DNA from: an uncultured Acidimicrobiales bacterium
GTDB lineage: Bacteria > Actinomycetota > Acidimicrobiia > Acidimicrobiales > SHLQ01
Reading direction: 5' to 3'
DNA length: 46,846 bases
NCBI GenBank assembly: GCA_938040365.1
Contig: CALHXU010000030.1
Location: 1-46,846, forward strand
A model generated the notes under the pieces. That model was not told where the DNA came from, searched no databases, and saw only the letters and a program-made list of their open reading frames with translations. A program made the translations under genes and the position numbers. Shown here one piece after another: positions 39,303 through 40,707 of this stretch (its first letter is position 1; the number at the start of each line of letters is the position of its first letter).

Positions 39303-39311
39303 CCCCCAACC

Positions 39312-40268
39312 TCAGGATTTGTCCCCCGTTTGATACCGCATAGGTTCCAAAGTAGGGACAGATCCTCTGGTGGAGTTGATGAGACGGGCGCAAAAGCCAG
39401 GGCGCTCGGTGAGGTCGGCGTAGGTGAACCGTAACGGTGTCCAGCCGGCCTGAACGAGAAGGTTCTGGCGACCTCCATCGTTCGCTATTTGTGCTGGGGA
39501 CGAATGGAAGGCAGCCCCATCGATCTCGACAAACACGCGATCGGTTACCCACGCAAAATCGAGACGGAAGTCGCGTCCGAAAACTCGGACGGGAAGCTGA
39601 GCGACAGGGCTCTCAATATTGAACCGCTCGCATAGTTCGGCGAAGAGCAGTTCTAATCCTGATTCAGCAAAGGCCGTTTGGGAAGGAAGATAGGCCAGCA
39701 CCCGCTCCAAGACTCCGGTTCCGTTCCTCCCCTGCTTGCTCGTTCGTTGTCGCATGGACCAGAGATCACGGGGCAGAACGAGCCCGGTCGCGATGGCGTG
39801 CAGGAGTATCCGATGCACCTCGGTCTCGGGGAAGATGAGGCCGAGATCACAAATCGTGCGCTCGGGTGTAGTTACTGGGATACCACTGATCTCGGTTCGA
39901 TCGGATAGTTCAAGATCGCGTATGGAATGCACGATGGCTCCTGCGGCCGACGCTTTTCTTGGGTACCGAATCGAAAGCTCGATGTCTGGATCGACCGACC
40001 GAAACCCCCACAGTCGGGCCGCTGAGCGATGCGAGGCCAGTCCGTCACGCGAAACGCTCAGCACCGCAGCGAGAAGATCCTGCTCCCAAGACTCACGAGT
40101 TCCTGCGAGCTGCACGACTCCTCTCCCGCGTCTGCGAAATTCACCTCGACTCACACGCTGAGCGACCATTCGTTTCGAATAGCCGGCTTCCAAGAGTTGC
40201 TCGGCGCTGAGCAATCCGAACTGCGCCGAGGCCCGCCGATCAAGTTCTGTAAAATCTGCCATCGCCAT
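39312..40268 (-). CDS. AbiEi-antitoxin-like N-terminal domain fused to DUF559 (Vsr-like) nuclease domain
   Basis: 318 aa. The N-terminal 60 residues form an AbiEi/AbiEi_4-type wHTH (FGLLSAEQLLEAGYSKRMVA, RVSRGEFRRRGRGVVQL). The middle is a linker domain typical of this group (SHRSAARLWGF, IPVTTPERTICDLG). The C-terminus is a DUF559/Vsr-like PD-(D/E)xK fold: DFRLDFAWVTDRVFVEIDG with the acidic catalytic residues, then RQNLLVQAGWTPLRFTYADL. The final codons (TLEPMRYQTGDKS) lie inside the left palindromic element, and the TGA is the triplet just beyond it. No partner toxin gene (AbiEii) is adjacent. Function unknown; a role linked to the flanking palindromes is plausible. Confidence 0.85.
   Translation of the reverse strand: MAMADFTELDRRASAQFGLLSAEQLLEAGYSKRMVAQRVSRGEFRRRGRGVVQLAGTRESWEQDLLAAVLSVSRDGLASHRSAARLWGFRSVDPDIELSIRYPRKASAAGAIVHSIRDLELSDRTEISGIPVTTPERTICDLGLIFPETEVHRILLHAIATGLVLPRDLWSMRQRTSKQGRNGTGVLERVLAYLPSQTAFAESGLELLFAELCERFNIESPVAQLPVRVFGRDFRLDFAWVTDRVFVEIDGAAFHSSPAQIANDGGRQNLLVQAGWTPLRFTYADLTERPGFCARLINSTRGSVPTLEPMRYQTGDKS
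39315..39365 (+). repeat. 51-bp palindromic element, left copy
   Basis: Left arm GGATTTGTCCCCCGTTTG, 15-nt loop ATACCGCATAGGTTC, then a right arm that differs from perfect complementarity at four positions. Left arm and loop are identical to the other copy. It encodes the C-terminus of the nuclease on the minus strand. Confidence 0.95.
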
Positions 40269-40305
40269 TGTTTAGTCAACCCCTCTGACAACGCACCCCG
40301 CCCCC

Positions 40306-40356
40306 GGATTTGTCCCCCGTTTGATACCGCATAGGTTCCAAACGGGGGACAAATCC
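40306..40356 (+). repeat. 51-bp palindromic element, right copy
   Basis: A perfect 18-bp stem, GGATTTGTCCCCCGTTTG with CAAACGGGGGACAAATCC, around a 15-nt loop. It lies 37 bp upstream of the nuclease start and in the same orientation as the left copy. Such a long stem would strongly fold as single-stranded DNA or RNA. Confidence 0.97.
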
Positions 40357-40443
40357 TTGGTTGGGGTGGTGGTGGGTGGTGTTTTGCGGAGGGAGGGCCC
40401 GTGACGTGCCTTGGCGCTGTGGTGGCTGCGGTAGGGTACCGAT

Positions 40444-40707
40444 ATGGCAACAGAGGCAGAGATTGCGCAGGCGCACCACAAGCTCGAGAAGGAATACAAA
40501 GACGTCATGGAGTCGCTCGGCGATCTCTATGTTGCGGTCGAGGCGGTGAAATCGGCCGGCATTGGCGATGACATCAGTGGCCTTCTCGAGGCAGTCCAAT
40601 CCGAAGCGAAGAAAGCGCGGACGGGCGGCGTGATTGGGTCCGGAGCGAAGGGTCATGCAAAGGCCTTGAAGAACTACCGAGAGTTGACCGCACCAGACGC
40701 TAGCTAG
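40444..40707 (+). CDS. Hypothetical small soluble protein
   Basis: 87 aa, charged and helical in appearance (AQAHHKLEKEYKDVMESLGD, LLEAVQSEAKKARTGG). GTAGGG precedes the ATG by 8 bp. No family recognised. It lies 21 bp upstream of the M20 peptidase gene and may share its transcript. Confidence 0.65.
   Translation: MATEAEIAQAHHKLEKEYKDVMESLGDLYVAVEAVKSAGIGDDISGLLEAVQSEAKKARTGGVIGSGAKGHAKALKNYRELTAPDAS

Follow-up and report, generated by a model that had tools for sequence, protein, structure and literature searches.

The stretch of DNA analysed here (46,846 nt from an uncultured Acidimicrobiales bacterium, hereafter the window) is probably, at odds that we would put near 0.6, home to a gene-bearing copy of a selfish palindrome-spreading system that resembles the REP/RAYT 'REPtrons' but is built around an unrelated nuclease. 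The gene is bounded by matching end palindromes that are specific to its lineage, solo copies of these palindromes follow the gene from genome to genome, copies are present in some genomes and absent from others, and the nuclease has a conserved active site and bears the mark of purifying selection. We are highly confident of this association between gene and palindrome, which we regard as new in kind, and we propose a mechanism for it with moderate confidence. The features of the window on which the analysis is based are as follows.

39315..39365, + strand: left palindromic element, 51 bp, with a partly decayed right arm; it encodes the C-terminal residues of the nuclease
40306..40356, + strand: right palindromic element, 51 bp, a near-perfect inverted repeat and a direct repeat of the left copy
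39312..40268, − strand: AbiEi_4 + DUF559 (Vsr-fold) nuclease gene, 318 aa, with a putative, family-conserved active site (D237, E248, D250, H255, D264)
40269..40305, − strand: leader, from the right element to the start codon
39304..39311, + strand: outer flank CCCCAACC, not unit-specific
40359..40366, + strand: outer flank GGTTGGGG, whose GGTTGG tail is also found after the solo copy at C249
38622..39302, + strand: hemQ-like gene (chlorite dismutase family), the host site, with its stop codon 12 bp before the left element
40444..40707, + strand: 87-aa ORF, the next gene rightward, which in genome G004 lies a short gap after hemQ (empty site)

The two 51-bp palindromes flank the DUF559 gene in direct orientation on the same strand, as the original prediction had it, and their first 37 bases are identical (GGATTTGTCCCCCGTTTGATACCGCATAGGTTCCAAA). 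The left copy shows decay in its right arm (GTAGGGACAGATCC versus CGGGGGACAAATCC). A 20-base core probe, allowed up to 3 mismatches, matched twice in the window and not at all in 100 shuffled sequences. The gene had also been described as bounded by both elements; it is flanked by them but does not lie wholly between the copies, since its last codons and stop codon run through the left palindrome. The window protein matches the Pfam models AbiEi_4 (residues 9–54) and DUF559 (residues 234–290) above their cut-offs and MTES_1575 below its cut-off, and the gene has no Pfam match to Y1_Tnp. Pfam analysis of the neighbours identified a member of the chlorite dismutase family, the 87-aa ORF without a match above cut-off, a Peptidase_M20 protein and a PQQ-repeat protein, with no AbiEii toxin gene adjoining the nuclease gene among the immediate neighbours scanned. 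The leader may hold the gene's own promoter, and the leaders at loci L060, L061, L064 and L077 appear alike by eye.

The outer flanks CCCCAACC and GGTTGGGG form an inverted pair that had been taken to define the ends of the unit. The pair is present, but it is weak as a unit end and was rejected as a defining feature because parts of it also stand beside solo copies: the one at C249:27157 has GGTTGG after it, and the one at C37 has ACCTCA before it. Better evidence for the unit ends is provided by the near-constant inner palindrome-to-palindrome distance, which is 985–995 nt in 7 of the 8 close-clade units, L063 being missed by the pattern. These 8 units occupy 5 host sites, with L060, L061, L062 and L077 on one site and the other four sharing none, in a comparison for which the upstream flank of L076 was too short.

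Copies of the element elsewhere in the host genome, the search for which had been proposed as a check, were found at 13 places (3.63 Mb, 277 contigs), which reduce to 12 distinct ones because the ends of C145 and C158 are the same place. Two protein matches in this genome, at C249 and C110, were considered as further DUF559 genes and rejected, as they consist only of translated element. Of the 19 family genomes, 17 have a homolog with an E value no higher than 1e-20, for 38 matches in total; the 30 matches for which DNA was available were tested, comprising 9 of a close group that includes the window (at least 50% identical) and 21 distant members (about 27–34% identical). In all 30 loci, which are partly non-independent in that L061/L062, L078/L079/L083 and L071/L074 each have one palindrome type, a stretch common to the two flanks outscores all shuffles. 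Under a single scoring scheme the left/right score was at least 18 in 30 of 30, a value reached in 0 of 103 sliding 900-bp intervals of the window and in 0 of 9 hemQ loci; 5 of the 103 intervals beat their own shuffles. RAYT loci, which served as a positive control with wider flanks, beat the shuffles in 4 of 6 cases. The shared stretches are palindromes of about 45–60 bp, some of them imperfect, and only 18 of the 30 family loci have a strict ungapped hairpin score above the shuffle maximum in both flanks. The remaining family loci, together with the remaining phylum loci that passed the flank test described below, exhibit imperfect palindromes or just left/right repeats.

The sequence of the palindrome varies by lineage, with the CCCCC type in the window, GTGAAGG in G005, GTACAG in G010 and G007, GTACACGG in G009, GTGAGCG at the second gene of G010 and TTTTCTG in another genus. 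Loci L060, L061, L062 and L077 occupy an orthologous host site, where the outer flanks are 74–96% identical upstream and, for the three loci that reach there, 69–72% identical downstream; at this site the left and right palindromes have changed in concert from one species to the next. The pattern GATTTGTN{33,40}ACAAATC, counted with the gene-flanking copies included, occurs at 10 places in G000, 18 in G004, 20 in G005, 23 in G007, 15 in G009 and 23 in G010. It is found at 0 places in the other 13 family genomes, and the reversed pattern is found at 0 places in all 19. A gene with 62% or more identity to that of the window was detected in exactly these six genomes. The predicted association of the palindrome with DUF559 genes is thus borne out, both by the close clade (6 of 6 genomes with the gene and 0 of 13 others) and by the 30 flanked family loci.

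A second pattern, TCTGTGGN{30,42}CCACAGA, derived from distant members of the family, occurs at 4–36 places in 8 of the 19 genomes (G000, 20; G001, 30; G003, 23; G005, 4; G007, 11; G010, 8; G009, 36; and G004, 5) and at none in the 11 others, and a matching flanked gene was seen for 6 of the 8, that is, for all except G004 and G005. The reversed control gave 0 in 16 genomes, 24 in G012, 4 in G013 and 1 in G018; the reversed sequence in these three genomes (GGTGTCT...AGACACC) is perhaps another palindrome family. When 89 solo elements, a part of all those counted by pattern, were compared with the gene-flanking palindromes, 57 matched best, or tied with, those of their own genome (permutation mean 19.5, maximum 33), and 76 did so when the sister species G007 and G010 were merged (mean 31.1, maximum 44). 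The other 32, or 13 after merging, fit the gene of another genome better, and the own-type share was weakest in G005 (12 of 22). Some palindrome types occur where no corresponding gene was detected, namely TCTGTGG in G004 and G005, GTGAGCG in G007 and GTACAGACTTTC in G005; these may be orphans left by gene loss, or the gene may be missing from incomplete MAGs. Solo palindromes often form tandem pairs with a 60-bp period (L145, L151, L164, L175, L180, G005:C80, G005:C96 and G009:C39), and the same layout occurs beside some DUF559 genes. At L155/L166 (G007:C204 and G010:C45), a site that aligns between the two species, palindromes of two different types are separated by about 770 bp.

To characterize the site itself, we compared the two arms of each element. 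The half-sites are ACTTCGGGtnnTtantGTCGCTA in G074, TCTGTGGAGnntgnggtGcgnn in G001 and TCTGTGGACnnncaGCCcCgcn in G003. Arm identity within the same element was 0.819 in G074, 0.703 in G001 and 0.781 in G003, versus 0.844, 0.726 and 0.788, respectively, for randomly paired arms, and in the test of all 18 G074 elements 1926 of 2000 shuffles reached the observed value. Compensatory changes between arms were therefore rejected as evidence for a hairpin, and the hairpin part of the original prediction is not supported, complementarity within an element being no higher than that of random arm pairs. Because an element's own arms pair no better than random ones, the arm sequences suggest a symmetric site in double-stranded DNA, as a protein dimer would read it, in which one half-site occurs twice in opposite directions, rather than a stem.

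hemQ was found in 10 of the 11 genomes of the genus, and the unit lies behind it only in the window's genome; it is absent there in 9 of 9 other hemQ genomes, with the contig of G001 ending about 350 bp after the gene. The window's order of hemQ, 87-aa ORF and peptidase gene recurs in G004 without the unit, the peptidase gene comes after hemQ in G007, G009 and G010, and G003 has, between hemQ and the peptidase gene, a solo palindrome of the type of its own gene. Since the element occurs at further places in the genome, is linked to DUF559 genes and relatives have the hemQ site without the unit, a compact mobile unit whose protein would recognize the palindrome, as originally proposed, is the best-supported reading.

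Solo copies also differ between genomes. At G010:C270, two tandem palindromes are present where G005 has two convergent reading frames whose overlapping stop codons form CTAG, and CTA is found on both sides of the insertion; the other of the two junctions available, at a gene site shared by G007 and G010, exhibits no clear duplication. A DDE-type IS or MITE with terminal inverted repeats would be expected to leave a fixed target duplication. The latter site has one 49-nt palindrome in G007 that is absent in G010, reflecting either gain or loss. In G074, loci L227 and L228 share 61 identical bp within flanks that are otherwise unrelated; beyond one end of the 46-bp palindrome the copied stretch continues for about a further 14 nt. 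Movement is slow: of 20 G007 element regions retrieved, 18 have an aligning counterpart among the element regions retrieved from G010.

The elements are concentrated at gene ends. Of 72 elements with sufficient flanking sequence, 56 have, at most 40 nt away, a stop codon that ends an ORF of at least 100 codons, compared with 638 of 2730 random positions in the same DNA, and 18 of the 56 have one on both sides; the commonest gap between stop codon and TTTGT is 2–3 nt. In G074, 10 of 14 elements are close to a stop codon versus 147 of 1400 controls. Next to the arms, the tetranucleotide CTAG is overrepresented (19 of 154 sides versus about 0.3% in the control), in the register of a TAG stop. Considered as the target, CTAG was kept as a hint only because its enrichment is tied to stop codons in a fixed register. 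In a flank profile built from 77 close-clade elements, TTTGT is preceded by (A/G)GA in the setting of a stop codon, and no GTAG tag appears.

The gene family extends across the Actinomycetota. With a profile built from 29 homologs, matches at E 1e-20 were obtained in at least 89 of 296 genomes of the phylum, gene counts per genome being lower bounds that refer to the candidates scored, at most 7 in each. A further 29 phylum loci, each from a different genome, were put through the flank test, and 19 exceeded the maximum of 200 shuffles, where about 1–2 passes would be expected by chance at the rate of the window-interval control; 10 failed, including one with only 81 bases of upstream flank. 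A separate locus, from Streptomyces canus, also failed and has no matching palindromes. The strict hairpin score was high on both sides in 7 of the 19 passing loci. Genome G074, a single contig of another family that is 99% complete, has 18 elements, of which 2 are at its detected gene and 16 are solo, versus one gene match at E 1e-20 among the candidates scored. As controls, the G074 pattern gave one match in 1 of 6 other genomes, and the reversed pattern gave one match in G074. In a cultured strain of Tsukamurella tyrosinosolvens (L232, NZ_LR134454.1), inverted matching palindromes of 42 bp flank both ends of the DUF559 gene WP_068740572.1; these are identical at 39 of 42 positions (score 34.5 versus a shuffle maximum of 17), and similar sequence occurs at 6 places in three records of that species. 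An alignment-based search of the viral collection found no relative; two Meiothermus phage matches to the nuclease domain were found. Plasmid searches matched 2 and 9 records, 10 of them distinct, and flanks were examined in 2 of the 10.

In an alignment of 29 proteins, D237, H255 and D264 are invariant, and E248 and D250 are nearly so. A profile search of solved structures gave I-Bth0305I (3r3p) as the best match to the nuclease domain (E 1.2e-6), followed by NGO0050 (3hrl; E 6.7e-5), and weakly matched AbiGi and AbiEi structures to the N-terminal half, the match to the AbiEi structure 6y8q having an E of 0.049. PADLOC assigned only AbiEi models to the window protein, the best at E 6.3e-28, again in the N-terminal half. 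A fold model built from an alignment of 3 sequences was poor overall (pLDDT 53.8), with the nuclease part mostly at 74–86 per ten residues between positions 211 and 300 and dips to 42 (251–260) and 66 (261–270); Foldseek with this model placed 3r3p in the first row (E 3.8e-3, probability 1.00), and no match was found at E 0.001. Ratios of dN/dS were 0.07–0.16 in the 12 of 21 pairs with a computable dS, a rough estimate since dS was 1.7–4.4, and in the other 9 pairs, in which dS was saturated, pN/pS was 0.26–0.33. These substitution ratios indicate that the nuclease is under purifying selection. I-Bth0305I dimerizes on a target of nearly 60 bp according to a review (PMC3943268), which fits a symmetric site of about 50 bp.

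AbiEi proteins bind inverted repeats. As in the AbiEi antitoxins of type IV toxin-antitoxin systems, the N-terminal half of the protein matches AbiEi models, but here it is fused to a nuclease domain and no AbiEii is among the immediate neighbours. The suggestion that this is a defence gene carried by repeats finds its sole support in that AbiEi-like N-terminus, and the neighbours scanned include no AbiEii. The DUF559 protein NGO0050 of Neisseria (3hrl) has a nuclease domain of the same type, but its solved chain comprises 104 aa without an AbiEi part. The EDxHD (Vsr-like) homing endonuclease I-Bth0305I shares the nuclease domain and the conserved E/D/H/D residues and, in the review from which the EDxHD name is taken (PMC3943268), acts as a dimer on a very long target; in contrast, the gene described here is free-standing between two palindromes rather than inside an intron or split target, carries an AbiEi-type N-terminus and has target-like sites that are dispersed. 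A gene for an EDxHD homing endonuclease interrupts its own target, which is intact only in alleles that lack the gene; the close-clade palindromes, a candidate target here, look whole on both sides of the gene, which would speak against such an arrangement. The nearest parallel is REP/BIME with RAYT (TnpA_REP), for which a REP paper describes a nuclease-type gene beside cognate palindromes, many intergenic solo copies, pairs and gene specificity (PMC8266576); dispersed solo palindromes cognate to the gene are likewise found here. The enzyme differs, being an AbiEi-type plus Vsr-fold nuclease and not an HUH/Y1 transposase, as do the absence of a GTAG-type tetranucleotide from the 77 close-clade elements profiled and the site, which is larger (about 45–55 bp), symmetric, placed at stop codons and without sign of selection for arm pairing. 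Because the Y1 enzyme and the GTAG tag were looked for and are absent, we describe the system as REPtron-like and do not class it as a REPtron.

We propose the following mechanism. An AbiEi-type DNA-binding part and a Vsr/EDxHD-type nuclease would sit between two copies of their own symmetric site of ~50 bp, and a dimer of the nuclease would bind the palindrome via its two half-sites. The nuclease would then break DNA at or near a target at a gene end, often C-T-A/G at a stop codon, and repair would copy a palindrome of about 50–60 bp into the new place. On occasion a tandem pair of 60-bp period would be copied and, in rare cases, the gene together with its two palindromes. One difficulty is that a hydrolytic nuclease does not by itself join DNA. 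For REP dissemination, too, the REP paper leaves this step open (PMC8266576). Whether this system is a separate class, spread throughout the Actinomycetota and convergent with REP/RAYT, in which each lineage of AbiEi-Vsr nuclease drives its own symmetric double-stranded site of ~50 bp into gene ends without a transposase, integrase or recombinase, is to us an evenly balanced question.

The least unlikely of the alternatives is homing, in which solo palindromes, spread by other means, serve as landing pads that the nuclease cuts; the gene would then be copied into them with its flanking palindromes as homology arms, turning a solo copy into palindrome-gene-palindrome. The best solved match is indeed an EDxHD homing endonuclease, which according to the review acts as a dimer on nearly 60 bp of target (PMC3943268), and the unit length is near-constant at 5 host sites; however, the donor palindromes remain whole and would themselves be cleaved, palindromes greatly outnumber gene matches (in G074, 18 elements versus one match among the candidates scored), and no other spreader is in sight because the RAYT loci of the host genome lack the element. 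We regard as unlikely, too, and a little more so, that the system is domesticated and non-mobile, its palindromes being selected protein-binding sites at gene ends with a role in termination, nicking, nucleoid structure or defence marking. Its proximity to stop codons (56 of 72 elements versus 638 of 2730; 10 of 14 versus 147 of 1400 in G074), the sharing of most of the retrieved sites by G007 and G010 and the apparent purifying selection on the nuclease would all be accounted for, but these points are compatible with mobility as well. The sites that are present in one species and absent in another, the 61-bp identical copy in unrelated flanks and the occurrence of the whole unit at different places within the genus argue against immobility.

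Spread of the palindromes by a RAYT (Y1 transposase) or another transposase, with the DUF559 gene as a passenger or inserting beside them, appears improbable, although the host genome has 6 Y1_Tnp matches and the elements are REP-like and form tandem pairs. These matches (L025–L030, on contigs C273, C99, C201, C13, C94 and C60, other than the contig of the window) are of RAYT type and lack the element, the best match to which in the 6 loci is only 10–14 nt; moreover, the palindrome type tracks the DUF559 gene, and the close-clade flank profile has no GTAG tag. Several of the RAYT-type loci are near their own, different palindromes or repeat arrays, of the GGTGCCTGGCACC, GGGGTCAGACCCC and GGGGCCTGTCCCC types, and hence REP/RAYT-type and DUF559 palindromes coexist in the host genome. 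RAYT as the mobilizer was rejected, for the host genome only, on the short element matches and these separate repeats. If ordinary terminator hairpins happened by chance to lie beside genes of a widespread actinobacterial family, the palindromic form and the position behind stop codons would be explained, but such a coincidence is very hard to credit given a left/right match over about 40 nt with lineage-specific sequence, the flank controls (0 of 103 and 0 of 9), the reversed pattern (0 of 19) and the lack of excess arm pairing.

In the open-licence PMC literature, we found no report linking DUF559/AbiEi genes with palindromes, and to our knowledge no such palindrome-spreading role has been described for Vsr/homing-type nucleases. 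If the selfish palindrome-spreading system proposed here is correct, it would provide a second answer to the question of how such small palindromes are multiplied within bacterial genomes. As spread would take place without a transposase, integrase or recombinase, a hydrolytic nuclease and host repair would suffice to multiply DNA. The finding also suggests a function for a common, nameless actinobacterial family annotated as 'DUF559' or 'AbiEi antitoxin' and would make available a large natural set of enzymes with their sites on which to test how such proteins recognize about 50 bp of DNA.
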